NCBI RefSeq assembly: GCF_021917145.1
Contig: NC_061073.1
Coordinates: 1,204,075-1,268,074, forward strand
Direction: 5' to 3'
Origin: Hypomesus transpacificus
Taxonomy: Eukaryota; Chordata; Actinopteri; Osmeriformes; Osmeridae
DNA: 64,000 nt
The notes beneath the pieces are model-generated. The model was given only the letters and a program-made list of their open reading frames with translations, made no database searches and was not told the DNA's origin. Positions 27,807-61,395 of this stretch are shown in pieces (position 1 is the stretch's first letter; each line of letters opens with the position of its first letter). The position numbers and the translations under genes are program-made.

Positions 27807-27965
27807 ATGGATGGTTGTGTCGTCCGTCTACACACAGTACATTTTAAGCCCAAAGTTGATGGGAGCCGGACGGACTTTACTGCCCAGCCCCTCCGAGTTA
27901 ACTTCCACGAGCTTCTGGGAAGCATAGACGCACCAGAACTGGTCACTCAGGTACCACCCCCCCCC

Positions 27966-27996
<31 letters not shown>

Positions 27997-30900
27997 ACAC
28001 ACACATACCAAAAATACATTCAAATATAACCCAAATGAGCTCAGGCATCATGCTTGTAAACCTATTATCCTACTTGGGAATTAGATTAATTATAAAATGC
28101 TTCAGTCAGTCCAAAGGTACACTCCTCTGCTCTGTGCCCAGTGCAGATGGCACGAATGGGGGTGTTGGTCTCTTGTCCATATACTGTACCAAAGTGGGAG
28201 GGTGAGTGTGCATGGATGGCACACTGTGAACTGCTGTATTTTCTTAGTCCATGTCTGCGCTTGTGAGAGTGGTCGTTGTGTTTATGTGTGTGTGGGCAGG
28301 ACTGCTGGCGCTGAGCTCTCGTCCTATAAATAAATACAGCGAATCCTGTAGACATTCACTGTAAAAGCGCCACTGTAAGAAACCGTGTATATGCAGTATG
28401 GTTATCTGGAAGTGTACTGTTGCCAGTATAGCTGTGCACACCTAACACTGACACACGAGCATGTGGCTGCATCCTGGTATGATAACACGTCACTTTTTAT
28501 TTTCCAGGAACAGCTAAGTAGGCTTTTACAAAGGCATAATATCTTTTTCCTCATGCTCTCAGGATGTGACTGGCCTGGACGGCACTCTCATTGTATATCA
28601 CCCAATGATAATGCATGCTCACTTTCACACACAAAACCACACATCCGCTAACACACATCGATCCTCACTCTGTCACACACACATACATTCAAATAAACAC
28701 ACCATACACATTCTTTTAAGCTCCCCCTTTTTAAGTCCTCATTAACGTCTCATTTCCTTTTCGTAACTCAGCCTTGCCCCATCTCATCTGGCATACTTAT
28801 TGTTGGTACATCTAATCTAGTTGTGTACGTGTGCATGGGTGTGTGTTGGGTGGGCCGGGTGCGTGTGTGTGTCCGGGTGTGTGGATGTGTGTCCGGGTGT
28901 GTGGATGTGTGTCCGGGTGTGTGGATGTGTGTCCGGGTGTGTGGATGTGTGTCCGGGTGTGTGGATGTGTGTCCGGGTGTGTGGATGTGTGTCGGGTGTG
29001 TGGATGTGTGTCCGGGTGTGTGGATGTGTGTCCGGGTGTGTGGATGTGTGTCCGGGTGTGTGGATGTGTGTCCGGGTGTGTGGATGTGTGTCCGGGTGTG
29101 TGCCTCCCAGGTAAATAACCTAGACGTCCTGCGCGCTGTGGTGGCCCTGTTTGATGTGTCTCTTCCTGACGTTGGGCCCCAGGACGTCCATGACACTGTG
29201 AACAGCCTCGGGGCCCACACCATCATCCTGCTGAGGCAGCCAGCAGGTACGGAGGAACACTAGCCAGCCATAACCCTAACCAGCCCTAACCCTAACCAAC
29301 CCTAACCAGCCCTAACCCTAACCAGCCCTAACCCTAACCAGCCTTAACCCTAACCAACCATAACCAGCCATAACCAACCCTAACCAACCCTAACCAGCCA
29401 TAACCCTAACCAACCCTAACCAGCCCTAACCCTAACCAACCCATAGCTCTAACCAGCCCTAACCCTAACCAACCCTAACCAGCCCTAACCCTAACCAGCC
29501 ATAACCAGCCCTAACCCTAACCAGCCCTAACCAGCCCTAACCCTAACCCTAACCAGCCCTAACCCTAACCAGCCCTAACCTTGACCCACCCTACCCAACC
29601 CTAGACAGTACACAGTTTGCACGCTGCATGGATATTAGTAGGAAAACAGTCTATCCAATTAGATGGCTCTAATAGTTTCTGTATTGCGTTTTATTCTGAG
29701 ATAACTCTATCTTAGTTTGGATTCAGCCAATTGATTTCTCCATTCCCCTTATTTCTTGACTCTGTCTCTGCCCCACCCCCACTAAAGAGTATAGAATCAT
29801 AACTGTCTCTGTCCCCTCAGATGTTCTAGAAGAGTATAGAATCATAACTGTCTCTGTCCCCTCAGATGTTCTAGAAGAGTATAGAATCAAAACAGTCTCT
29901 GTCCCCTCAGATGTTCTAGAAGAGTATAGAATCATAACTGTCTCTGTCCCCTCAGATGTTCTAGAAGAGTATAGAATCATAACTGTCTCTGTCCCCTCAG
30001 ATGTTCTAGAAGAGTATAGAATCATAACTGTCTCTGTCCCCTCAGATGTTCTAGAAGAGTATAGAATCATAACTGTCTCTGTCCCCTCAGATGTTCTAGA
30101 AGAGTATAGAATCATAACTGTCTCTGTCCCCTCAGATGTTCTAGAAGAGTATAGAATCATAACTGTCTCTGTCCCCTCAGATGTTCTAGAAGAGTATAGA
30201 AGAAGGACTCCCCCCAGCCCTCGACGGGAGACGGGGATCCCCCTCCTCCTCTCATTGGTCAAACGCAACAGAGAGGGCAGTTTCTCCCAGGTCTTCAGCG
30301 AATCAGAAGACAGTTCTGAGGAGAGCTCTGAGGAGCGAGAGGAAGGGGAGGCAACCACCCCACCCAGGTATAGAAGACAAATTTAGAACTCTACTCAGCC
30401 CACACTCCTATAACCTGCTGTGCCTACAATACTTCAGCCTCCTCAAACACGCCTGACGGAGCATGACATTTGTAAAATGCCAGGTGTGTTTCTTTTTTAC
30501 ATGCTGTACATTTAGCAGACGCTTTTAATCCAAAGCGACTTCCAAGAGAGAGCTTTACAAAAGTGCATAGGTCACTGATCATAACAACGAGGTAGTCCCA
30601 AACATTGTGGGTAGCCAAAACATGAAGCACACATTGTGATAAACCAAATAAGTGCCAAAGGGAAGAACCATAAGAGCATGTAGTTAAGCAAGTTACAATT
30701 AAACAACATGAACCTCCAAAGTTCAAGAGTGTACCTGTAGAAAAGCAAGCAACAATAATATATTTCATTTAAACAGCCAAACTTGTCATCAAGATAGAGC
30801 TTCCTCTATCTTACTCTGGGGCCTCAGTACATTAGTATTAGTCATTACTATTTTTGCTCATGTTGTCACACATTTTTATTGGTGCAAATACTGTGTGATC

Positions 30901-32668
30901 CATCTGCCTTCTTTTGAATGTATCACAATGGCTTTACTGGAATCGTCCTAATTATCAACCACTTTTTAATCATTTATGATAAATTTGAGTCATTTCAAAA
31001 TAGATTGCCTCAGAGACAACTGCTGTGAAAAGTCATTGATTTCTCTGAGTGATTGACCATCAAGTCCATGAATTAATAATGCAGTGTGGGGCAATCCATT
31101 TAGAAGGCTAGGGTTAGGGCTCTCACTGGTAGGCCATCAGTCTCCCAGCCAACTGGACTCTCTGAAGGGAAGCCCCAATGGGCTCGTTGAAACGGAGGGG
31201 ATTGGATTGTGGAGTTTATTGGCAGTGTAACATTACAGAGGGGTTACCAGAGAGAAGCCCTTCTCTCAAGCTCCAAGCTGCGTGTGTTTGTGTGTGTTTG
31301 GACCTGGAAGGTTGTGCCACTGCATGTTAATGTGACAGTCTTAGACAAGACAGAGTGAACCGCAGGCCAGACCAGGGCTAACACCAGCTATTCTGTTAGA
31401 GGTAATGAGATTAATGGGGCTTTGAGGAAATCCACTTCCAAGTACCTCCACCACTGCTAGCCAAGTGCTTTCAGAACTGTCAGCCAAATGCCTTTACTCT
31501 GGAAACCCAATACATTCTCAGTACTCATAACTTCTGTGGAAACTGATTACATGAAACTATTTAAGTAATCCAAGCAATTTCTTAAAGTAAATAATAATTT
31601 ATACAATCTAGTCATTGATTCAATGAATATATTTGTAATATTAGTTACTTAAGAGGATTAGATCATTACTGAAATTGTATGATGTCTTCAGTTTTCACAA
31701 AAGTTTGAAGTTAAACCCTTTATCAGGGTTTTCAGTGTATGCTACAGATTCCCTCTGTCTGTGTTTACACACACTTTCTCCTTCTTCCATCTCCCCCACC
31801 CACTTTTAGGGGCGCTTAGAAAACTTGATTTCCTGGAAAGGAGAAAGGCCCAGTCCTGCTCCCTAGCCTGTCTGCAGGGTAGCTTATATCATCATCATGT
31901 AGTCATGGAGTTATGGAGCAGAACATACCACAGGAAACCGGTGCAAACAATCCGTTTAAGAGGACAAAGGTCAAATATGCAGACAGGATACACAGTACCA
32001 GTCAAAAGTTTGGACAAACTTTTGACTGGTACTGTACACACACACACACATACACACACACACACACACACACTCACAGATACACATCCAGATACACACA
32101 CAGATACACGTACAGATACACAAATACACACATATACACACACACATACACACACACACAGATACACATACAGATACACACACGCAAAACACAGGTTGGC
32201 AAAGTATCACGTTGTTCACATCACATACAGTACCAGTCAAATGTTTGGACACATTTTCCCATTCAATGTGTCCAAACTTTTGACTGGTACTGTATATGAT
32301 AAATATCTCACCAGCTTGCCTCTGTACACCTCAGTTGTTCCATCTGGTGCTTGCTGTTCTCACAGTGGGGCAGCTCTCTCCCTGTCCCAGCTCAGGACGT
32401 CTTCTGGTGTGCTCTGTCCTGTAAACCGTTGTCGTATCTCTCTCGAGGCTCTCACTTCCTGTTGCTCCTGTCACTTCCTGTTGGGAGCCTAGGTCTTCAT
32501 GGGAGGTCTTCTGCCTGGGCCTGGAGGACTTCCTGTCCGAGACGCTGCAACGCCGGGCTCTCCGCGACGACCCCGAGGATAACCGGCAGATACCGCCCGC
32601 CGCTGTGGGGGTGGAGTCGCTCATTGTAGCAGCTGCAACGTTCGAACTGAAGACCCTGTGAGTGACAG

Positions 32669-32704
<36 letters not shown>

Positions 32705-35700
32705 CTTAGCTTAGGTGGAATATATCAAGGTGTGAGCAGAACTACGATATTGTTTTGTATATTACCCGTTTATTACCTAGGCTCATGTACAATGTTGCTC
32801 AGAACCAAGTCGTTTAGCCTCCCATATATCAGTTCAGCAGCTGTCCTCCAGACCTTAAGGAGAGATGACCTTCTAGAACGGGCCTCTTTGTAGCACTTTG
32901 TACTATTTGTTCATTGCTTTGGATGTCTGCTAAGTGCATGAATGCTAATAAGTTTAGTCTAGGTAGGCCCACCTTATCTTTCGACAGGTCTTTCATACCA
33001 GACCATTGCTCTTTGGGTGGGCTGTCCCTGCACTGAACCGATTGGAAATCTCCAGGGAAACTCAGGAACAGAGGTCAGGGATCATGGGGGTGTCATGGTG
33101 ACATTGTGTCATGGAGACATTGTGTCATGGTGACATTGTGTCATAGTGACATTGTGTCATGGTGACATTGTGTCATGGTGACATTGTGTCACGGTGACCT
33201 GGGTGGCACATCTGGAGCAGCAGGTTTAGCCTTGAAGGTCACTCCAGGTCAAGCAGATCTAAAGTGACCCCCCCCACCCCCATTTTCTGTTAGTAAATAT
33301 TTGCACTCCTGTGTCAACAGTGGTGTTGGAAACACCTGGAAGTTTGTTTCCCCAGAAAAAGGCACGTGTTTACTTTACACGAGCACCATAGCAAGCTGCC
33401 ATGTTTTCTACATGCCACATCTTTGCCTCTCTGGACTGGCACAACTGCGCTACCCAGTTTAAATTCTTGGCCATGGGGGACAAACAGAAGCACAGTGAGT
33501 CTTTTAGCTCAGTGAACTGCCTTCGCAGTGTGTCCAACACTAATACCAACTCTCTCTTTCCGTCGTCAAACCTCTCTCTCAGCACATAGACCTTATTTAT
33601 ATCTTCAAACTGAGAGCAGCCTTGTCATTAAGAGTCTCTGTGCGGGGTGCGGCTCCGCCCTTGGTGGCCCGTGTCCCACACCCTTTATCCTGTCTGACGT
33701 TGTGGGAAGGTTATTCCTAGAACAGGGCTGGACTCCCAGAACTTGGGCTGCACTGGGCTGTGTGTGTGTGTGTGTGTGCGCTCTGGATTGAACTGCTCTA
33801 GGGTGGATGTTGAGGGAGAAATGTAATGAGAGCTTCCTAATGAGAGAGCAGGAGTACCCCTTCCCTCACCCCTGCCCCGCCCACCTCTCCCCCACCTCTC
33901 CCTCTTGTCTCCCTCTTCCCTCCCTCTTGTCTCCCTTTTCTCTCTCTCTTCTCTTCCTCTTCTCTCCCTCCTCTCTCCCTCTTCTCTTCCTCTTCTCTCC
34001 CCCACCTCTCCCTCTTCTCTCCCTCCTCTCTCCCTCTTCTCTTCCTCTTCTCTCCCTCCTCTCTCCCTCTTCTCTCCCCCACCTCTCCCCCACCTCTTCC
34101 TCTTCTCTCCCTCTTCCCTCCCTCTTCTCTCCCTCTTCCCTCCTTCTTGTCTCCCTCTTCTCTCCCTTTTCTCTCCCTATTCTCTCCCCCACCACTCCCC
34201 CACCTCTCCCTCTTCCCTCCTTCTTGTCTCCCTCTTCTCTCCCTTTTCTCTCCCTATTCTCTCCCCCACCACTCCCCCACCTCTCCCTCTTCTCTCCTTC
34301 TTCCCTCCCTCTTCTCTCCCCCACCTCTCCTCCAGCTCAGCTCCAGCTGACATGGGGAGCCTCCTGACCAGCTCCAGCTGACTAGAGGAGCCTCCTGACC
34401 AGCTTCAGCTGACTAGGGGGGCCTCCTGACCAGCTTCAGCTGACTAGGGGGGCCTCCTGACCAGCTCTAGCTGACTAGAGGAGCCTCCTGACCAGCTCTA
34501 GCTGACTAGGGGAGCCTCCTGACCAGCTTCAGCTGACTAGGGGGGCCTCCTGACCAGCTCTAGCTGACTAGGGGGGCCTCCTGACCAGCTCTAGCTGACT
34601 AGGGGGGCCTCCTGACCAGCTCTAGCTGACTAGGGGGGCCTCCTGACCAGCTCTAGCTGACTAGGGGGGCCTCCTGACCAGCTCTAGCTGACTAGGGGGG
34701 CCTCCTGACCAGCTCCAGCTGACTAGGGGAGCCTCCTGAGCAGCTCCATGGCTGTTGGTTCTCTGTTTGTGTATTCTGGTTCCACGGCCCACTGGGGAAA
34801 CACAGGGGAACACAGTCCGCTTAGTTTAGACATCCAGAAAGGTACAGTGTTATGCCTCCTTCCGCCTCGCTCCAACCACCCCTTTGCCAACAGCTGAAGT
34901 TGATCTACAGCCTTACAGTAGAACGTACTGCATTACTGGCAGTGATCATGGGTGACTCAGCTACATTCGCAGTCAGCAGATCCCAAAGGCTTAGTCACAG
35001 GGTATGGCATTCAGTGATTGAAATACACGATTAATAGCCATATCCGTGGATTCCAAATACAGTGTTGGATGTGTGTGACCACAGATAAGGTGGACGGCTG
35101 TGCTGACGCAAGGTTGTGAGGTGATGATGATGAAGTCGATGATGTTGAAGGCGATAAAGGTGGTGATGATGATGATGATGATGATGAAGAGATGCTGCCG
35201 TGTCTTCCAGGGCTTCAGGAGACAAGGTGCTGCAGCTGTCCCTAATGGCCACCAGGAAACGCTACAGGAACTGCGGAGTGGGACGTTACATCATCGAGGT
35301 GACCTTTCAGCTCACCCGCACACATGCGAACACGCGCGCACACGCACAAGCCTGAGGTACCTCCGAGACGGCTCCTATCTGTGTCCTCCCATCCTTTGCT
35401 CAGAGTAAAGCATCTTTACTGGTCGAAAATAACTGAGATGAAAAAGAAAATAGCTGAGCGCTCCACTAGTTAGAGGACCTTTCAGAAGGACGGCATATTA
35501 GAGGTTAGGCCTGCCTGATGGAAACGAGCATGTGACCACGGGCCTGGTTTCTGTGCTGCCCGGCGCCTGTGATTAGCGGCTAGGGTGTGTCTCTGACTGG
35601 AGGCTGAGCCACGGGCCTGGATGCTGTCGTCCTGGCGCCCCCTGCTGGTCAGACCAAACGCTGCCAGAGCCGACGATCCCCAGAGCTGGGTGTGAGGGGT

Positions 35701-36660
35701 GTCCTCCTCCCACCACCAGCCCCCCTCCTCCTCCTATCACCTGTGTTGGGAGGGGACGGGTTGACATGCCCCCCCCCCCCCCCCGTGGTCTCCTCCCTTT
35801 GCCTTTCCTCAGCTGCTGAAGACCCAGATGGTGTGCCCTCCCCACAACGCTTTCCTGGCGCACGCCGACTCGGACGCCGTCGAATTTTTTGCCAGCTGTG
35901 GCCTCTCCGACGACGCCCTTCTTAACGACAAGTTCAGGTAACGCACACACACACGCACGCGCGCCGCCCTAGCCCTGCGCATACACCACGGTACGTACCC
36001 GCGCACCGACCTCATCGCGTGTGTGATGGGAGCACGACGGAGCGGAGGCCCATGTTTCAAGTCTGTCAAACGTTGCCGTTCTTCAGGGAGGTGAGGGATG
36101 AATGGACCAACACCACTCTGATGAGCTACCTGCCTCCGTACTATACAGGTGGTCTACATGCTCACACACACACACACACACACACTCCTCAGTTCCAGCT
36201 ACACCGCTCATTTGGACACAGCACATTTCAGTTAAAATTAGGGTGTTTAAGGTTATCATTCCGGGTCCTTTTGCCTTAGAAGCCAGTTTTATTGTGTTAA
36301 CAATTTGGGGAAATCGTCCCCCCCTGCCCCCAACCCCCCTTCCCCCTGCCCCCAACCCCCCTTCCCCCTGCCCCCAACCCCCCTTCCCCCTGCCCCCAAC
36401 CCCCCTTCTCCCAACCTCCCTTCTCCCCCCCCATGCAGAGTCTGAGAGTCGTAGCCCAGGGTTCTCCCTGGTCCTGCCAGAGCTGGAGAGAGAGGTGGAG
36501 CAGGCGTGAGTGTGAACCAGTACAACACTCCCCCCAACAACACCAGAATACCACACATTCATGTCCGCACGCTGCCAGGCTTAGTTCCTCCACTGTCTCC
36601 GCCAGTGACTACCCGTTCACCTACTGTTCACAGAGACTCATGTTAGCCCTGTGGTGTGTG

Positions 36661-36743
<83 letters not shown>

Positions 36744-38228
36744 AGGAAGAACACAGCTCTAGAAGCCTACCAGCAGCAGGCTGTGTGTGTTGCCAGGCTG
36801 GTCAGGGAGGTCAAGACCCTCAGGGAGCAGGTCAGACACAACATACAACTATCACCCCTGGACTAACTCTAAGCAACTCTAATCTAATCAAGACTAACCG
36901 GCCCACTAATTGCCTCAGTGGTATCATCTGTTGACTGTGTCCTGTGTGTGTGTGTTTGTGTGTGTGTGAACCAGTTGAAACTGCAGAGAAGGGAGGTGGA
37001 CAACCTTAATGATGAGCTGGGCAAGGAGAGAGAGAGACGCCACAGAGTGGGTCTGTTTCATTTGTGTCTTTCCATCTGTGTGTGTGTGTTTGTGTGTTTT
37101 GGTTTGTGTGTGTGCGTGCGTGCTAAATGTGTACATGTGTGTGTGTTTACAGAGCAGCAGTTCTTGGAGTATAAACTGAGAAAGACCAGACAGCTTATGG
37201 AAAGACAGGTGATAGACTCGGGTGAGCGCGGCTGCATTAACTCTACATATCCACCACAGTCCTGTCATTTCCAAATCCCCTGCTGGACATACTAGGTTCT
37301 CCTGCCAGGTTACTACCACTGCACTTTCTCTTCTGTTCTACTGCTGCTACTGCTGGATAGAATCAGAAAGGGATTTATTCGCCATGATAGTTTGCACAGA
37401 CAAGGAATTTGCTTTGGCAGGAAGGTGCATACAATAAACATATAGGAATCTTACATTTAGATATATGGTCTAACTATACTAAGGATACATAAACTAGCAA
37501 TACTAAGTGGAATACAAATAAAATAAAATATACAATAAAATAAAATATAGGTTGCCATAAAATAAAAAAATATATAAGTTGCAAATTTACAGTATAAAAT
37601 ACAATATAAAATACTAATATTACACGAATAGTGTAGGTAGCCCTGAGAAAAACAAACACGGTTTTATCAATACACTCTTAATTGATACTCTCATTGGAAA
37701 TGAGAAAGATAGGCAAGTTGATCGTGAACAGGCTGTCACATGTACTCGCTGCTATGGACTTTTAACTATGAGGAGCTTTACTGAAATACCGACTGGCTGT
37801 TTATCTCCAAACCTGCATCGACTACAAATGTGCTGTGTTGGTGTTGACATTACTAGCAATCCAAATCATAAAGCATTATTTAACGATACCAATATAAGCA
37901 CAAATCCAGCAGGGATCGTCATGTCTTTAATGCTAAAGAAAGCCCGGTCTTGTCTCCTTAGCTACGTCCCAGGGTGGAGATGACACATTCTAAATGGTCC
38001 CTAACTGCTCTCCTCTCTACTGAGGAGTTGAGAGCTCTATCGCTAACTCTGTTGTTAGAGCCATCTTATCCTGCCCTGGTGTTTGTGTCTTCAGACGATG
38101 CGGTGGATCCCCAAGTAGGGTGCCCCGGCCCCCCTTCCAGTCCCCCAGGCCCCCCTTCCAGTCCCCCAGGCCTGGGGCAGCCCTCCATGGGGACTGAGGT
38201 GTTGCAGACTGGGGCTGGACGTGGATAA
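27807..38228 (+). CDS. Unnamed protein: GNAT-like acetyltransferase motif plus coiled coil (12 exons)
   Basis: I do not recognise the protein. Exons: 27807-27950, 29111-29246, 30181-30367, 32493-32657, 35211-35298, 35813-35937, 36087-36148, 36439-36505, 36746-36830, 36975-37046, 37155-37221, 38095-38228. They give about 443 residues with all phases consistent. Exon 10/11 could instead end at 37050 and start at 37153, adding two residues. Residues 1-93 (MDGCVVRLHTVHFKPK...) are a compact domain of unknown type. Residues 138-150 form a Ser/Glu patch. Residues 200-282 look like a GNAT fold: a VAAATFE strand, an acetyl-CoA loop NCGVGR at 231-236 followed by YIIE, then AHADSDAVEFFASCG. The loop has Asn where many GNATs have Gln. 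Residues 318-400 are a charged coiled coil (LEREVEQ, LVREVKTLREQ, RREVDNLNDELGKERERR). A Pro/Ser tail ends the protein. Acetyltransferase activity is an inference. Large introns hold minisatellites, and exon 3 may begin at any of nine repeated acceptors. Confidence 0.75.
27958..28006. repeat. Poly-C followed by CA run next to the exon 1 donor
   Basis: About 25 C then about 11 CA units begin six bases after the GT donor of exon 1 of the GNAT gene. Confidence 0.95.
28871..29100. repeat. 20-bp minisatellite (GTCCGGGTGTGTGGATGTGT), about 11 copies
   Basis: Near-perfect 20-bp units (one copy lacks a C) end about 10 bases before exon 2 of the GNAT gene. The Cys-Val-Asp ORFs in all frames are artefacts. 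Exon 2 itself begins only at 29111. Confidence 0.95.
29263..29604. repeat. Interstitial telomere-like CCCTAA array
   Basis: About 340 bases built from CCCTAACC with CAGC and CAAC interruptions, in intron 2 of the GNAT gene. It contains short exact TAACCC pairs but is not a pure telomeric tract. Confidence 0.85.
29784..30202 (+). repeat. 45-bp minisatellite carrying the exon 3 splice acceptor
   Basis: Eight complete 45-bp units start at 29821, 29866, 29911, 29956, 30001, 30046, 30091 and 30136. A partial unit precedes them and exon 3 proper starts at 30181 with the same first 20-odd bases. Each unit carries a branch-point-like TCATAAC, a pyrimidine tract (TGTCTCTGTCCCCTC), AG, and the exon start ATGTTCTAGAAGAGTATAGA. 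The second unit has AAAACAG in place of ATAACTG. The minus-strand 211-codon ORF across the array is a shadow. Confidence 0.97.
30512..30770. mobile_element. Dispersed repeat with TTTAGCAGACGC end
   Basis: It opens with TACATTTAGCAGACGCTTTTA, a segment like the tail of the two SINE copies. It then continues into a different AC-rich body (CCAAGAGAGAGCTTTACAAAA onward). It is probably a member of another dispersed fish family sharing that tail. The right border is a guess. Confidence 0.4.
31993..32034. mobile_element. Palindromic Tc1/mariner-type end pair
   Basis: CAGTACCAGTCAAAAGTTTG and its complement lie almost back to back, forming a 42-base palindrome. The same end sequence bounds the element at 32228-32292. 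It is probably a collapsed inverted-repeat element. A CA microsatellite follows directly. Confidence 0.6.
32035..32190. repeat. CA/GATACA microsatellite
   Basis: A CA run with frequent CAGATACA interruptions, lying between the two Tc1-like palindromes in intron 3 of the GNAT gene. Confidence 0.9.
32228..32292. mobile_element. Minimal Tc1/mariner-type MITE with TA target duplication
   Basis: CAGTACCAGTCAAATGTTTG at the left and its complement at the right enclose only about 20 bases. TA flanks both ends (32226-32227 and 32293-32294), as expected for a Tc1/mariner insertion. It has no coding capacity. Confidence 0.7.
32668..32704. repeat. Poly-G run after the exon 4 donor
   Basis: About 36 consecutive G on the coding strand, starting ten bases after the GT donor of exon 4 in the GNAT gene. 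The exact length may be an assembly estimate. Confidence 0.9.
33093..33202. repeat. GTCATGGTGACATTGT minisatellite
   Basis: About seven imperfect 16-bp copies in intron 4 of the GNAT gene. Confidence 0.85.
33880..34335. repeat. Pyrimidine-rich CTCTCCCTCTT minisatellite
   Basis: Tandem CTCTCCCTCTTC units with CCCCCACCTCTC variants. Long Ser-Pro-Leu (plus) and Arg-Glu-Gly (minus) ORFs are artefacts. Confidence 0.95.
34336..34745. repeat. 31-bp minisatellite, about 13 copies
   Basis: The unit is GACCAGCTCTAGCTGACTAG plus GGGGGCCTCCT, with small substitutions between copies. It lies in intron 4 of the GNAT gene. Nearly every unit contains an in-frame stop, so it is not coding. Confidence 0.95.
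36318..36430. repeat. CCCCTGCCCCCAACCCCCCTT minisatellite before exon 8
   Basis: Five to six C-rich units of about 21 bases lie immediately upstream of exon 8 of the GNAT gene and supply its pyrimidine tract. Confidence 0.9.
36655..36742. repeat. GT microsatellite abutting exon 9
   Basis: About 40 GT units end directly at the CAG acceptor of exon 9, so the microsatellite takes the place of the pyrimidine tract. Confidence 0.97.
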
Positions 38229-43200: not shown

Positions 43201-45991
43201 CAGATTCTCTGTTCGCAGGATTGTATTGCCATGGAGACAGCCTTGATCATGTCCCAGACAGAGACAACAATACACAGGTGGAAAGGGGGAGGGAATGCAA
43301 GAGAGTCTCTCTGCAGCGATCTTCAGCGGAGTTGTTGTTCCATCAACGGCCTTTGGCTAAGGCCCGTGCTGGTTGAGGGGGCCGAAAGCAGATCAAATTG
43401 GGATTTTTGGTCGAGTAGCCGGATTCCAATTTCCATGTCTACTCATTTCCCTTTTCCGACAGGTCTCCAAGTCGGTCCAATTTCCTTTGCAGAGCCATGA
43501 GCTTCTCCATGGTGTTATCCATATTGCGTTGTATAGCCACAATCTGAGTGCCACCAGCTCTGCCCAGCGCATCAATCATGTCGGCCAGCCTTAGGAGGCT
43601 TTTGACAGCTGTTAGCATTTCATTCATCTTCCGATAAACCAGGGCAGCGCCCAATCCAATCAGCAAAAAGCCTGTAATCATGGTTCCAAATAGGTAGATG
43701 TCTTCAATGTCCTCCACGGTAAGGACCGCTAGGCACACGACTCGCCACTTCTCCCACGCGTCCATCGAGTAGCCAGCTGCAAACGTCCCGGAAGGACCGG
43801 AAGGTTCCCCCGAACCCAAGCTTCTCGTCGAGAAGATGCTGTCAATTGCGTTGAACGACCAGCTGATCGAATCCATGATTTTAGTTCGGAGAGCAGTGCG
43901 GAGAGAGTCTCTCAAGTATAGGACACAAGACTAGACTATACGGTAGGAGCCAAGCAGGGAAGGTCAGGGGGAGGAGAGGGAGAGAAAATGTGACCGCAAT
44001 CGTCGAGAGCCAAAAGAATTTGCTAACAACCAATCAGGTATCCCTTATACATCCCCAAAGTCAACTCTTGACCTAGGATGTACTCAAAATATACTCACAA
44101 TCAGATTATACTGACGTCACAGCAATAATTCCCCAAGTAACAATAATCCATATAATTCATATACGCCTGTCTCCTACCTTCATAAAACACTACATTGTGC
44201 ATAAACAACACAAGGCTACTATTGTATTTGTAAGCATTCAAGACAATACATTAAGATGGTCATAGCTCAAGGGTTGAGCAGGTCCCAGGTTTAATTAGAC
44301 AAACTGAATTAGATTCCAGAACTGAATTAGATTCAGAGTTCATAGGATTCTCATTAAAGGGTAGAGTGGAGAATGCTGCCAATGCTTGGTCTACTCGTGA
44401 CAGGTTGGACCCTTCACAACGCACTCCATGTCAGCTAGTAAAGTCACAATCAAGCCATATGCATTCAGAAATATCAAAGGGAATGTAAAATGCCAGTAAC
44501 CATGATGTGCCTGCTGTCAATTTGGGAGCCCAATGTTTACTTTGTATGTAGAGCTTCGGTATGTGATCCATCTGGTTCTCAAGCTTTTCTGCCTTTCCCT
44601 TAGTATGATCCTCACTTTGCATTGGGCTGGATGTCTCCGTGGGCCATCGCAGCGAACCAGGCTACTTTTTCTCCCCTAGTAGCCGGATTCGGTGGGTGAA
44701 CAGTAACAGCACAAAACACACATGTTAGCACAATACGTATGTACTGTTTAGCACAATGTTTAGGAATGAGTCGTGCGGGTGTCTGTCTAGTTCTCGTCGT
44801 CTCTGAAAGAGACTGTGTCTCTAATGATGTGTCTGGTTCTCGTCGTCTCTGAAGGAGACTGTGTCTCTAATGATGTGTTTGGTTCTAAGAGGGCGTGGGT
44901 CGCCGCACAGGAAGAGGTCGCTCCCGTGGTCGTTCGCGTCCCAGACATGAACGTCCTCATCTCGCCTGGTTTGACCCCATGAATCCTATCGGAGACAACT
45001 ATGAGGTATTAATGAGGTTTCGTGTCAGCCTATTTGTGAGTTACGAGAAGTTGAATGGTGTTTTGGATGTGTTAATAAGGGTGTGTTCATCTTACTCTTC
45101 AGGCTCTGCTGGCCTTTGAGGAACATCAGGGGGCAGTGGTGGCCAAGAGCTCCCTGAGTAAGAGGGAACTGGAGAGTCTGCCAACCAAGACCTACAACCC
45201 AGCACACAGTGCTGGAAAGACCCAGTGAGTCGCAGAGCAGCAGTCACATGTAGACGTGTTCAGCGCACTGCATTTTATCTAGCTTCCTCCTCCTTTGTCT
45301 CTGCAGTATTCCCCCCAAACAGGGTGTATTTCCCTTAGCATGTTACAGTTGAGCAAAACTGTGTCATGCTCCATTTCAGGGCCTGGTTGTATACTGACAG
45401 GCATTCCATTGCATAGAACTAGAGGCGTTTACAGGCCTGCTTCTACAGGCCATTACCCAGCAGTCAGTGAAGTTCCTCTTTTGTTGCAGGTGTCAAATCT
45501 GTTTCTCAGACTACACAGAAGGGGAGGAGCTAAGGATGCTGCCCTGCCTCCATGACTACCATGTGCAGTGCATAGACCGCTGGTTAAAGGTAGTAGTTCT
45601 GAACAGTTCTTTGAACGGATGACGGATGATGGTACAAGAATTATTGTGATTTGATATACTGTATCTTGTTTGAAACTCTCCAATATATCAGCAGGCATGA
45701 TTTCTGAAGTATAAACATAGTTGATCGAGCTATTACAAAAAGCTTCCATAGATGCCGTGTTTTAATGCAGTTCTATCAAGTGGTTTTGAAAAAGTTGAAA
45801 TTATTTTTAGATCGTTTACGTGGGACAAACGTTATATTTAATAATATTTACTGGTAATAGTGATTTAAAGTGTCAAAGAAAATAATTATCAAAATAATAT
45901 TTTCTATGTTTGTTTCTTTTATTTTCAGGAAAGCGCCACCTGTCCGATATGCCGAGCTGATGTATCAGAGATGAGAGCAAATATGTTTTGA
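40269..45991 (+). CDS. RING-H2 E3 ubiquitin ligase with a SUMO-interaction-like motif
   Basis: A probable ubiquitin ligase; I do not recognise the orthologue. Exons: 40269-40450, 40558-40612, 40716-41205, 41638-41765, 41898-41987, 44892-45005, 45103-45224, 45490-45589, 45929-45991. They total 1344 bp, 447 residues, all phases consistent. Residues 1-240 are Ser/Pro-rich and look disordered, with a basic patch SKRRKLS and KNRLRKPKK that could act as nuclear signals. Residues 253-259 (IVISDDD) fit a SUMO-interaction motif followed by acidic residues. Residues 262-300 are acidic then Gln-rich (REEQQQQ). Residues 316-338 are Gly/Arg repeats (RGRSRGRSR). The RING at 395-435 has ligands [14 protein letters not shown] and CPIC (C3H2C3). 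Trp after IDR is the E2-contact residue. The RING resembles that of RLIM/RNF6, but the N-terminal half does not. The exon 6 acceptor (TCTAAGAG) is weak. Confidence 0.85.
42215..42540 (+). mobile_element. Second tRNA-like SINE family
   Basis: The head GGCGTAGCTGGTAGTGGTC is A-box-like and GGTTCGATCCC-type text (GGGGTTCGATCCCGAG) is a B-box, with spacing like a tRNA. The body continues to about 42540 and contains CTTCACCATTTTCAC. Only one copy is in the window, so the borders are approximate. Confidence 0.5.
42584..42589 (-). terminator. AATAAA beside an ACT repeat, minus strand
   Basis: The minus strand reads CAATAAAGGA then (CTA)n (42565-42582). It lies downstream of the minus-strand ORF at 43439-43915 and could be the 3' end of an element carrying that ORF. 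The link is an inference. Confidence 0.3.
42600..42777 (+). mobile_element. tRNA-derived SINE copy (forward)
   Basis: It opens GATGGCTGAGCGGTGAGGGA (A-box) and carries GCCGGATCGATTCCCCG (B-box), resembling a Leu/Ser-type tRNA head. Then follow CCTTGGGCGAGGCACTTCA and the tail CTGCTAAATGACTAAATG. It is the same family as 18903-19096 and sits in intron 5 of the RING gene. Confidence 0.8.
43439..43915 (-). CDS. Intact ORF for a small membrane/coiled-coil protein inside a RING gene intron
   Basis: 158 codons without introns, antisense within intron 5 of the RING ligase gene. I do not recognise it. The ORF opens at 43915, but the second Met (residue 14, reading MDSISWSF) has the better start context, TCATGG. 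Residues about 78-99 ([20 protein letters not shown]) form one hydrophobic membrane-span-like segment, followed by Arg-Lys. The tail of about 58 residues has regular Leu/Met/Ile spacing ([37 protein letters not shown]) and should form amphipathic helices. There is no signal peptide and no cysteine cluster. Its single exon, repeat-rich setting and a downstream AATAAA suggest it came with a mobile element or retrocopy, but this is not shown. It is either a real protein or a recently intact element ORF. Confidence 0.45.
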   Translation of the reverse strand: MRDSLRTALRTKIMDSISWSFNAIDSIFSTRSLGSGEPSGPSGTFAAGYSMDAWEKWRVVCLAVLTVEDIEDIYLFGTMITGFLLIGLGAALVYRKMNEMLTAVKSLLRLADMIDALGRAGGTQIVAIQRNMDNTMEKLMALQRKLDRLGDLSEKGNE

Positions 45992-46239: not shown

Positions 46240-47827
46240 CTATTTTTCTGTCAAAATGTTGTTCAACTTTATTATAAAAATGTCCAATTCCTCTCTTGTA
46301 GTAGTGCTTTTTAATGGGCCTGTGTTTCCTGAGACTTCTCACTGTCAGCTGGGATCCTTCCATCAGTCAGACCCAGAAGTTAGTTCTGCACCCCTAAAGT
46401 AGAGATGTTACCTAATAGCAGAATAGTAACCATAAACAAATGGGTTCATACTTATGCTCATCCTCTCACAATAGTCAACTCATAATTTAAACTGATGCTA
46501 ACTTGAAACCCATTAGAAACATGTAACAGTATACAGTATTGTGTTCATTATATTTTTATTATTGCATACCAAGACAAAGGACCTTTGATATTTTGGATAT
46601 ATAGGCTATTGTTCAAGGTAACATGTTTTAGCCCTCCAGTACAAAAAATGATTTCACCCCATATCTTATTGAGAAGATTGTGCAGTGTAGGCCATTTCAC
46701 ATATATTTTTGTTATATTCACCATTAAGATGATTACAACCCTATCAATGTCGACATTAAATAATCGATCAAACAACCTGGAGCCAATTTATCGAGAAGAA
46801 TATGGCCTAAAATCAATCAAACTGATAAAAATTAAATTGTAACTGTTAGTGGTTATATCTTTTTCTTTATAATGTCTCAGCATTAACCACCTCGTCAGCT
46901 CAATAATTTATTTTCAGTTTTAGTGTTTTAAACAAAATATCAGAACAGATTTCAATGTACCGTATTCAATTGAGAATATTTATTGTTGACAACTGTTGCA
47001 TGAAAGTGGATATACATATTTCCATTATAGACAAAAATGTTCCCACAACTAGCCTTAATTTTCTGCATAAAATCGTGTCGCGAACAAGTGTTTCATGAGT
47101 AAACAAAAACGTTTTAGTTTCCAAAATTAGAATGTCCGTTTTTTCAATCTGTCCCATTGTGATGTGACGTTGTGAACTGACTTGTGTCTCTGATTTGTTA
47201 GTTTTTTACTAGTGTATAACCGCTATCCTACCCCTAAAAAAAACAGTACTTGTCTGCTTAATTGTCTGCATATATTTTCCCTTAACAAGCCGTTCTAGAA
47301 ATGTTGTCAGCCCTCTATGTAGCCTACTTCCTCTGTGCCAAAATTGTGTGCAACTGTTCTCTTCACACAGCGTTGCTAAGCTAGCTAACAAGCTACAGTG
47401 TAGCCGGCAGTGGACCGCTTTTTGCGATACCACTGAGCTGATACATTGGATTTGTCTTCGATTGACCTCTTGCATGGCTTATAGTTAGCAGCGAAAGTGG
47501 TGAGTAGTAATATGTAGTTAGCTAACAAATGTGTATGTTATTCGTGCAGAGATAAAGCACACCATATTTGCTAACGCGCTATACCTAGCTACTACAGTGC
47601 GTTTCAAAGCGTGAGTTTACCAAGCTTGATGATGAAGCCCCGTAACTATTCTGATACTAGCTACAGTATCTAACTTGATCACATTTTGTTTCAGATCGAG
47701 AATCATTGCAACACATCTCTTTGTCTTCCGCTTATAGCCCTTGAATTTAATCAGCCTTTCACTGTACGTTGTAGTAGCGTAGCTCGGTAAAATAGCTAAT
47801 CCAACGCTTGTACAGTTAACGAGCAAC
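46240..47827. other. Intergenic region and STRAP promoter
   Basis: AT-rich unique DNA without recognisable exons or repeats. The last few hundred bases must hold the STRAP promoter and leader. No TATA box is evident next to the start. Confidence 0.5.
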
Positions 47828-50806
47828 ATGGCAATGAGACAGACACCCCTTACCTGTTCTGGACACACGAGACCAGTTGTGGATTTGGCATTTAGTGGAA
47901 TAACACCTTATGGATACTTTCTCATAAGTGCTTGTAAAGGTACGTTTTCCCCTCAACAACCCTCACGCAACACAATGGACATAAAATGCACATGCACGTT
48001 GTTGATATACTTCTATTCATATTTTGTCCATATAGATGGCAAACCTATGTTGCGTCAAGGGGATACAGGGGACTGGATTGGAACATTCCTTGGCCATAAG
48101 GGAGCAGTGTGGGGGGCCACTCTGAACAAGGATGCCACCAAGGCAGCAACGGCTGCAGCAGACTTTACTGCGTAAGCATATCTGGCTTGTGGATGACTAC
48201 TGAACTCAGAGTTAGATATTTGATGTAATCAAACTGATCCTACACACAGACAAAAACACTAATTGGAGTGGTTCACAATGGTAATTTTTGTTGTTGAAGT
48301 GCTGCTATTTCCACATGAACAGACAACAACAAAAACTATTAGTAGTACATAAAGTAACAACAAAAACTAATAATAGTACATAAAGTATGACTGAACACAG
48401 GGCTGTGACTATCCTCACAGTATTGCTCTCTGAACTCATGACAATACTGCCCGGCTTAAATACATTTCACTTGCAGCTACAATGCTAATTCTAGATAACC
48501 CAAAGAGACTCTATATACATTTATTAACTATTTTCAAATTGCTGTCAAATGTAAATCATAGACATATTGGTCACTGATGAGCACAGTACAGTGTTGATTA
48601 ATAATGTTTATGGTTAATATGTCTGCTCTTAATTGTTTTAATCTTCCTCAATGAGTCATCACATGTAGAAGTGTCAAGTCAGACAATGACCCCTCTCCCT
48701 TTTTCCTCTGTAGGAAAGTATGGGATGCAGTGTCAGGTGATGAAGTCTTGACCCTGGCCCACAAACACATTGTCAAATCTGTAAACTTCACACAGGTAAG
48801 AAGTGTGGCTGGGTACTACATTCATTGCATCTTGATTTAGATCTCACAGGATTCAGGCTACTGATCCCAGAGATTATAGGCACGGTAGTTCTAGACTACT
48901 ATTGCTTTTAATACTGTATTTTCCTGCTGCCTAGTTATTAAATCAACTACAGGGAAAACAGTAGAGCCAAGGGATTGAGTGATTTTAAGGGCTTTTATGT
49001 GCTACATGGAAAATGATTGTTGGTCCAATATTTGGTTAGAAAGTCCTAGTCTTTTATAAAGAAAATCTATACAAATCTATTGTGAACTCCAGGAGGCAGA
49101 ATTTGCGACTGGATGTCGAATTGTGGTCAATGGGAAGCCATTGTGTTGACTTTTCTAGGACAGTAACCACCTGCTGACAGGGGGAAACGACAAGGTGTTG
49201 CGCATTTATGACCTGAGCAAACCAGACGCGGGTAAGCTAGGCAGTCAATGTTTTTTTTTAAAACATTTGAATGTTAAATGTTTGAATTCCTGTATATTTG
49301 TGACTGTGCACACATTACGTGTGTGTGTTGGGGGTGTATATTGTAGAGCCTCAGGAGATTGCGGGTCACAACGGCGCCATCAAGAAAGCTTTGTGGTGCA
49401 ATGAAGACAAACAGATTTTATCAGCTGCCGACGACAAAACAGTCAGGTAAGACAATTACTTTGCACTTGGCACTGGCTAACCCTGCGGAAACCCATTGAA
49501 TTAATATTTAAAAACACAACACATCAGTCATTCTGAGATGAAGAGTCGCAGTGACGTGACGGCAATGTTGTTTTTCAGACTGTGGGACAGGAGCAGTGCA
49601 GAGGTGCTGAAGAGTCTGTCCTTCGATGCATCTGTGAGCAGTATGGAGTACATACCCGATGGACAGATTGTTGTCATTACCTACGGCAAGACCATTGCTT
49701 TTTACAATGCCCTCAGGTATGTTGGCATATGAAACTGCTCAATGTAGTTCATATTGTGACATGATGTGGGAAAGACTGAACCGGAGTAACAGGAGATAAA
49801 CCAAAAAGTCCACAAAGCCAAATTAAAGGTTGATATGGGAATCTCACCATCTGGACACTAGAGGGAGACATGCACATGTGTATAAGCATGAGCTGCAAAA
49901 AGAAGCAACAGAGGAAGTATAGAGGCACTGCTTGGTAGATAATGCCTCGTAGGATAGACAGTAGTGTTAGAAATAGTATCATAAGCCGATAAAAGTAGGA
50001 AGAAGTTCTGCTTATACAGTGCATTCTTCTTCAGACCTTTAGCATTAACATGTACTCAACTATTTAGACTTATAATTTGCAGAAGTTAATTTGAGGACAT
50101 CAGCCTTGTAATGGTTTGGCTCAAATCGATAAAGGCATTCTTCCGTTCCTTCTCAGCCTAGAGCTCATCAAGACAGTGGACGCTCCAGCCTCCATCCACT
50201 CTGCCTCGCTTCATCCAGAGAAGGACTACTTTGTTGCAGGAGGAGATGACTTTAAGCTCTACAAATACGACTACAGCACTAAGGAGGAACTAGGTAAATC
50301 CCCCCCCCCCTCCATGTCTCTGTATTTATCTAAACATCATTAGAGTTTGTATTCTAAGTCTGTTTGGACTTTGACATGTCTTGCTGGTCTTGTTGGGAAA
50401 GAAAAAAAACCCTGAATGATGTGTCCATGTAGAATCATACAAGGGACACTTTGGGCCAGTCCACTGTGTACGCTTCAGCCCAGACGGAGAGCTGTACGCC
50501 AGCGGCTCAGAGGACGGGACGCTGCGACTGTGGCAGACAGCTGTGGGGAAGACTTACGGCTTGTGGAAATGTTTACTGCCAGGTGAGGGGACTAATACCT
50601 GCCCCTATGCAAGTGCTCTTAAGTCACTGCCATTTATCTTCATCAGACCACTTCACTTTCAGTGAACAAGTACTTCATTTTATACTGAACGACAGCGAGG
50701 ATAATCACTCATTGTCCTCTTAACTTTGCATTGTTTTACAGAGGAGTTGATTTCAGAAAGTTCTGAGACGACCTACCCTGCACCTGCTCCTGAAATCAAG
50801 GCCTGA
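47828..50806 (+). CDS. strap: STRAP, serine-threonine kinase receptor-associated protein
   Basis: A WD40 scaffold that damps TGF-beta signalling with SMAD7 and joins the SMN/Unrip complex in snRNP assembly, mainly cytoplasmic. Exons: 47828-47939, 48036-48171, 48714-48795, 49159-49231, 49347-49446, 49579-49716, 50157-50293, 50433-50582, 50742-50806. They total 993 bp, 330 residues, all phases consistent. The first residues, [20 protein letters not shown], agree with the human protein as I remember it. Seven WD repeats are visible, for example [20 protein letters not shown] and [13 protein letters not shown], ending with [10 protein letters not shown]. Human STRAP is 350 residues, and the acidic C-terminal tail here is shorter ([20 protein letters not shown] then A). 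The Met-Ala-Met start has ACATGG context. The gene is convergent with NEDD1. Confidence 0.97.
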
Positions 50807-60171: not shown

Positions 60172-61395
60172 ATGTCCAAAGCAACCATTTCACTCATTTT
60201 AAAGAGAGATTTGCATATATACAGTAACATTCAGTTTCACTTCCGCCGAAATTATCTACCTACCATCTTCCGAGAATTCACCCTAACACGAAATTTATCT
60301 GAGAAGCACCAAATGCCAAAGAAAGACAAAACGGTAGGATCAAGGCGTATGCAGTTATGTCATTTGATTTAGCAAGTTGTGCTAACGATCAAATAATTTG
60401 CATTTTCCAGTGTAAAGGTTCACAGAATAAGAAGTCGGAAACATGCGTGTCCCCATCAGGTCCTGTGGCTTGTAACAAGAGTGGAGATGTTACAATTTCA
60501 GTGCACGCAAAGCCTGGCTCTAAACAGAACGCGATAACAGGTGTGTAATATGCTGTGTTTACTTCGCTAAAATTAGTAGGCTTTTGACACGCCCGATATT
60601 CTTAAGAGTTTCTTTCAAATCGGAGTTAGGAGATACTTTTAGCCTTAAAATGTTTTGTGAGTAAGGTTGTGTTGTAGAAATATATGGGTCTAAGACCTAA
60701 CAGGTTGAGTTAGCTGCCCTCTCTCACTTAACTTTCTTTACCTCCACATTAGTCTGTAGACCTGCCTCACTGACAAGGGCTGAAAAACTAGCCTTCCTGT
60801 CACAGACGTTTAACTGACTGATCAATCAGTTTTCCAAATATTCACACAATTTATTTAGCACTCAAATTGTAATGCTCTCTTTGTCTTTTCTATTAAGAGT
60901 TGCTTTATTGTTTGTCTGCTTTTTACCAACATTGCCGTTTGCCAAGCAAGGAGGCTTGAAATTCAACTTCATAATAAAGTCATTTATGCTACTCTGTAGT
61001 AATCTAATGAGATACATATCTACTACATCAGTAAACAGTCTTCTCTACTCCAGATGTGACAGCTGAAGCTATAGGTGTTGCCATTGCTGCTCCACCAACA
61101 GATGGGGAAGCCAATTCTGAACTGGTCCGGTACCTCTCTAAGGTTCTGGACCTGAAGAAAAGTGAAGTAACTTTGGATAAGGTGTGTGCTTAACTATTCA
61201 ATTTCAGTCTTATGCCCATCACATAAATATTGAGGTTTTCTACTTTCATTATAAATGTATAAATGAGTGTGCTCAAAACATTATTTGACTTAATCTTACC
61301 AGGGCTGTAGATCCAGAGAGAAGGTGATCAAGCTGTCAGGATCCCTAACCCCAGAAGAAGTGCTGGAAAGGTTAAAGAAGGAGGCCACTGGATAA
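60172..61395 (+). CDS. C15orf40 homologue, UPF0235/DUF167 family
   Basis: A small conserved protein of unknown function. Exons: 60172-60333, 60411-60540, 61054-61181, 61303-61395. They total 513 bp, 170 residues, phases consistent. The DUF167 fold is clear: [17 protein letters not shown], then [50 protein letters not shown] and [13 protein letters not shown]. The human protein has a short form beginning MPKK and a longer form with an N-terminal extension. Here MPKK is residues 48-51, and the 47 residues before it ([20 protein letters not shown] onward) are basic, hydroxylated and nearly without acidic residues, like a mitochondrial targeting sequence. Both start codons could be used. Confidence 0.95.

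Follow-up and report, generated by a model that had tools for sequence, protein, structure and literature searches.

A 45-bp minisatellite across a modelled intron-exon boundary carries nine copies of a 3' splice site

The window analysed here, i.e. the whole stretch of 64,000 nucleotides, contains a putative gene for which we built a model of 12 exons (27807-38228, + strand) separated by GT-AG introns, with the boundaries picked by eye, without RNA, so as to hold the reading frame (table 1). The modelled frame is unbroken up to a TAA stop codon and encodes 445 amino acids in its short form. A few of the modelled boundaries are weak according to our approximate scoring matrices, namely the acceptors at 36975 (0.6) and 32493 (2.3) and the donor at 37050 (1.9). 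The acceptors of exons 9, 10 and 11 (36746, 36975 and 37153, with approximate scores of 3.8, 0.6 and 4.9) have GT-rich repeats in place of the usual pyrimidine tract. Searching Pfam with the corrected protein of 445 amino acids yielded only matches below the curated cut-offs (Acetyltransf_10 with E = 0.0058, and weaker ones), as did a search with an earlier 377-aa draft that did not include the last exons (UPF0561, E = 0.003; Acetyltransf_10, E = 0.0046; and weaker ones). Among these sub-cut-off matches are models of GNAT acetyltransferases that fall on the middle part of the protein; a search of solved structures returned nothing convincing, the best hits having E-values of 0.08 and 0.57 (the latter obtained with the 377-aa draft). 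Neither Rfam families at the gathering score nor tRNAs were found in the window.

Table 1. Features of the modelled gene and of the repeats at its intron 2/exon 3 boundary.
Feature	Coordinates	Strand	Source	Remarks
Exon 1	27807..27950	+	gene model	from ATG
GT-rich array	28855..29102	+	TRF	20-bp unit; ends 8 bp before exon 2
Exon 2	29111..29246	+	gene model	ends in phase 1 with G
CCCTAACC-type array	29256..29603	+	TRF	starts 10 bp after exon 2
45-bp minisatellite	29785..30201	+	TRF, self-match	nine full periods + 12 bp, across the intron 2/exon 3 boundary
Intronic copy of AAGAGTATAGAA	29785..29796	+		left bound of the array
Candidate tenth acceptor	29786..29788	+		AG 29786-29787, exon start 29788 (exon 3 of 580 nt); in frame, open through exon 3
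First repeat acceptor	29819..29821	+		AG 29819-29820, exon start 29821 (exon 3 of 547 nt)
Variant unit 2	29865..29909	+		TCATAACTG changed to TCAAAACAG; branch-like motif gone, AG gained
Last, exon-most acceptor	30179..30181	+		AG 30179-30180; exon 3 starts here by default
Exon 3, short form	30181..30367	+	gene model	187 nt
Exonic copy of AAGAGTATAGAA	30190..30201	+		right bound of the array; within E-E-Y-R-R of the protein
Exon 4	32493..32657	+	gene model	
Exon 5	35211..35298	+	gene model	
Exon 6	35813..35937	+	gene model	
Exon 7	36087..36148	+	gene model	
Exon 8	36439..36505	+	gene model	
Exon 9	36746..36830	+	gene model	
Exon 10	36975..37050	+	gene model	
Exon 11	37153..37221	+	gene model	
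Exon 12	38095..38228	+	gene model	ends in TAA

Tandem repeats occur in several other parts of the gene. Exon 2 is squeezed between the GT-rich and the CCCTAACC-type arrays, intron 4 harbours two arrays (34338-34748: 31 bp, 13.3 copies, 95%; 33885-34320: 11 bp, 39.6 copies, 81%), and a 21-bp repeat of 2.4 copies (38123-38172) lies inside the coding part of exon 12, where it reads as a proline/serine-rich segment. Neighbouring coding pieces on the + strand (45398-45619, 47783-48172, 50420-50662 and 61035-61190) comprise a RING finger, WD40 repeats and a DUF167/YggU-family piece; the WD40-repeat coding sequence belongs to a gene that we take to be STRAP.

TRF gave 86 rows for the window, the one with the highest score (820) being a tandem array with a 45-bp unit, 9.3 copies, 98% matches and 0% indels. 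Its self-match at a period of 45 has a length of exactly 417 bp, i.e. 9 x 45 + 12. The minisatellite of this period reported in the first-pass annotation at 29784..30202 is thus real, TRF placing its bounds at 29785-30201. Of its length, 396 bp belong to the end of intron 2 and 21 bp to the beginning of short-form exon 3, and both its edges are formed by the same 12-nt sequence, AAGAGTATAGAA. There are eight full units (29820-30179), of which seven are identical and one, unit 2, differs from the others at two bases. Chance cannot produce such an array. Outside it, neither strand of the window contains a further copy of the unit at up to five mismatches to a 23-nt core. A candidate for a decayed older unit in the upstream flank (29604-29784) was rejected as weak: the best local match there is a 13-nt pyrimidine stretch, which was equalled in 33 of 1000 dinucleotide shuffles.

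The identity of seven of the units could also be taken to mean that the array is an assembly artefact, with fewer units, or none, in the genome itself. We consider this very improbable, because one unit carries two private substitutions, an array of 417 bp is short for present long reads, and the window as a whole is repeat-dense, with 39 arrays of a period of at least 10 (after merging) that make up 7.9% of its length.

Nine acceptors, with exon starts at 29821, 29866, 29911, 29956, 30001, 30046, 30091, 30136 and 30181, follow one another through the array in 45-bp steps. All nine are in frame, and splicing to an upstream one would lengthen the protein by n x 15 residues, from 15 up to 120, with no stop codon introduced. 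The last 15 intron bases, i.e. a pyrimidine tract and CAG, are identical before all nine exon starts, and eight of the nine copies have a 24-nt AG-free stretch with a single TCATAAC, whose A is followed by 18 intron bases. The exception is the acceptor at 29911, which is preceded by TCAAAACAG instead of TCATAAC, has gained a decoy AG and has an AG-free stretch of 13 rather than 24 nt; it is predicted to be weak. With our acceptor matrix, which is approximate, eight copies score 9.5 and the one at 29911 scores 8.8; the gene's remaining 10 acceptors range from 0.6 to 11.3 (eight of them below 9.5). On the similarly approximate branch matrix TCATAAC reaches only 3.7, whereas candidates of up to 5.5 exist in some of the gene's other introns; a CCCTCAG scoring 3.6 lies 46 bases before most copies, behind other AGs. 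RNA structure as a means of hiding or exposing the acceptors is ruled out, as the array folds no better than its shuffles do (z = 0.83; an equally good or better fold in 79 of 100 shuffles).

These results support the central claim of the first-pass annotation, according to which open, in-frame units have multiplied the splice site itself, and bear out its nine exon starts and the n x 15 additional residues that each upstream one would give. Some of its details call for amendment. TCATAAC was said to be part of every unit, which holds for eight of the nine acceptors and fails in unit 2, and the unit, which does include the start of exon 3 as claimed, matches 21 rather than 20 exon bases. The description of the acceptors as working-looking can be retained, as far as the sequence goes, for the eight copies whose score exceeds that of eight of the 10 other acceptors, with 29911 set apart by the loss of TCATAAC. 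Finally, the nine acceptors listed are all present, but the list left out a further in-frame, stop-free AG at 29786-29787.

This candidate tenth acceptor, situated at the 5' edge of the array, is preceded by a branch-like TCTTGAC (branch A at 29759) and a C/T-rich tract. At 5.6 bits on the approximate matrix, TCTTGAC is the best branch-like motif listed for any acceptor of the array, and the AG-free stretch measures 59 nt. Were this acceptor used, the whole array would be a plain coding minisatellite: exon 3 would start at 29788 and encode eight to nine copies of DVLEEYRIITVSVPS, adding 131 residues to the protein. The open frame through exon 3, the branch-like motif and the long AG-free stretch all speak for such an arrangement, and the low approximate score of the acceptor (3.8) is no bar to it, given that the modelled acceptors at 36746 (3.8), 32493 (2.3) and 36975 (0.6) score no higher. 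We nevertheless find it quite unlikely, as the intact repeat copies score 9.5, and a pyrimidine tract and CAG, which would be superfluous in a coding repeat, are kept in every unit.

How surprising is an open frame in an array of this kind? When a 45-bp duplication (-25/+20) was simulated at the acceptors of the gene, that of the array included, the frame remained open at 11 of 11, and four other splits of the 45 bp left it open at 10 or 11 of 11. Stop codons are rare in pyrimidine-rich intron ends. The open frame as a mark of selection is ruled out by these simulations: a stop-free frame is cheap, and the coincidence that is left is a period divisible by three, with odds of about one in three. 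Nor is it surprising that a splice site was captured. With arrays covering 7.9% of the window and one of the gene's 22 splice sites located inside an array (approximately 1.7 would be expected at random; seven of 22 lie within 30 bp of one), this is to be expected in such a stretch. The special properties of the array as regards the frame are thus mostly such as chance easily gives.

The structure is not a new kind of element. Minisatellite duplications of an intron-exon boundary, called 'mirages', are described in a study on amphioxus (PMC3087553), for example in Adh3 and in the globin genes BflGb6 and BflGb9; according to the same study, splice signals are found in many but not all repeats, and RT-PCR data from Adh3 and the globins suggested that regular splicing was undisturbed. 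Another paper (PMC3902484) mentions imperfect repeats in amphioxus PGBD5 and cites a case from troponin C. What the present array has in common with the amphioxus mirages is the minisatellite-like tandem duplication across an intron-exon boundary: its 9.3 copies of 45 bp span the modelled acceptor at 30181, and the splice signal is copied with them (pyrimidine tract and CAG in nine of nine, TCATAAC in eight of nine). The mirage units measure 10-72 bp in Adh3 or 150-160 bp in the globins, compared with 45 bp in the single allele at hand, which is probably from a vertebrate and differs from the amphioxus cases in having nine acceptors, eight of them intact and all in frame and open.

Analogues exist in humans: in segmental duplications, internal tandem repeats located at exon-intron boundaries can alter splicing or exon length, and the variable ones have units with a mean of 30 bp repeated four times (De Grassi and Ciccarelli 2009, PMC2812944). 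They resemble our case as minisatellites at exon-intron boundaries; they were detected as differences between paralogues, with RNA support, whereas the present array is known from the sequence of one allele. In IFI6 (G1P3, 6-16), a minisatellite reportedly contains multiple splice donors, some of which are used (PMC4526556, citing Turri 1995). It is donors that are repeated in IFI6 and acceptors that are repeated here. Human introns reportedly arise from tandem arrays, judging by the title of a 2007 article by Zhuo; tandem repeats would supply splice sites there as they do here, although by that title it is introns that arise, unlike in the present array. Because amphioxus genes carry the same structure, and there are human analogues of it, our array belongs to a known kind, and what distinguishes it is the number and near-identity of its putatively intact in-frame acceptors. 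No title describing an array of acceptors in a fish was seen among the matches listed from the open-licence PMC literature, which is not proof of absence, and PMC3087553 was the only match there for boundary duplications combined with minisatellite and fish.

Our preferred interpretation, to which we assign a probability of roughly 80%, is that the array is a recently expanded minisatellite of the mirage type that grew across the intron-exon boundary by happenstance and so came to contain nine copies of a 3' splice site. The 3' splice site of intron 2, together with its branch-like sequence, pyrimidine tract, AG and 21 exon bases, would have been multiplied to nine. With AAGAGTATAGAA standing at both edges of the array, we infer an ancestral boundary present in a single copy, whose acceptor was flanked by a 12-nt direct repeat that would have provided a natural seed for expansion, presumably through slippage or unequal exchange between its intronic and exonic copies. 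That a 12-nt repeat should have flanked the boundary before the expansion is unlikely by chance, and this counts against our interpretation.

As for splicing, the rule on AG exclusion zones (PMC1431707) holds that a branch point is paired with the nearest AG downstream of it, except where that AG lies within approximately 12-15 nt. Each branch point of the array could then serve the next AG alone, every unit forming a closed module, so that the choice of acceptor would amount to a choice of branch point among eight near-equal modules. The exon-most acceptor at 30181 probably carries most of the splicing, as it gives an exon of 187 nt and regular splicing is reportedly left undisturbed by the mirages of amphioxus. 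Any upstream copy, if used, would add 15 residues per unit and leave the frame intact.

It is conceivable, at somewhat less than even odds, that several of the nine acceptors are used, which would be compatible with our preferred interpretation and would result in a ladder of protein isoforms differing in 15-residue steps, in a mix depending on how many repeats the allele has. The sharing of the last 15 intron bases by all nine acceptors, the intactness of eight copies and the open frame of all nine are consistent with this possibility. So are two human precedents, namely IFI6, in which two minisatellite units are reported to act as splice donors, with three mRNAs resulting (PMC4526556), and the finding that, where internal tandem repeats have modified human introns, a transcript retaining the repeat in the exon is also supported in 66% of cases (PMC2812944). 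On the other hand, splicing at the upstream sites would enlarge the exon to as much as 547 nt, an open frame does not point to selection, as 11 of 11 acceptors of the gene would give one, and regular splicing is reported to be unaffected by the amphioxus mirages (PMC3087553 and PMC3902484). The stronger proposal of a natural vertebrate splicing ladder, formed by eight working and near-identical in-frame acceptors in an array of variable length, in which the length of the allele would set both the choice of acceptor and the size of the insert, seems unlikely to us.

If such a ladder did exist, up to 120 (or 131) extra residues would be inserted between the N-terminal part and the remainder of the protein. 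Near-identical acceptors placed at 45-nt steps within one native intron would also constitute a natural test of spliceosome preference, be it for the first acceptor, for the last or for any of them, when local signals are equal, with the acceptor at 29911 serving as a built-in mutant control for acceptor choice. More generally, the array illustrates how a minisatellite could lengthen a protein stepwise without breaking its frame.

The units offer acceptors rather than donors. Four GTs examined in the unit have donor scores from -0.7 to -6.9, whereas the gene's 11 donors score 1.9 to 9.2; with a top score of only -0.7 in the unit, no new intron is expected to arise within the array. The highest-scoring of these GTs, AGAGTATAG, has GTATAG in common with the modelled donor of exon 3, which scores 5.0. 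This modelled donor begins with GTATAGAAGA (30368-30377), and the identical ten bases recur, perhaps by chance, close to the 5' end of exon 3 at the right edge of the array (30194-30203).
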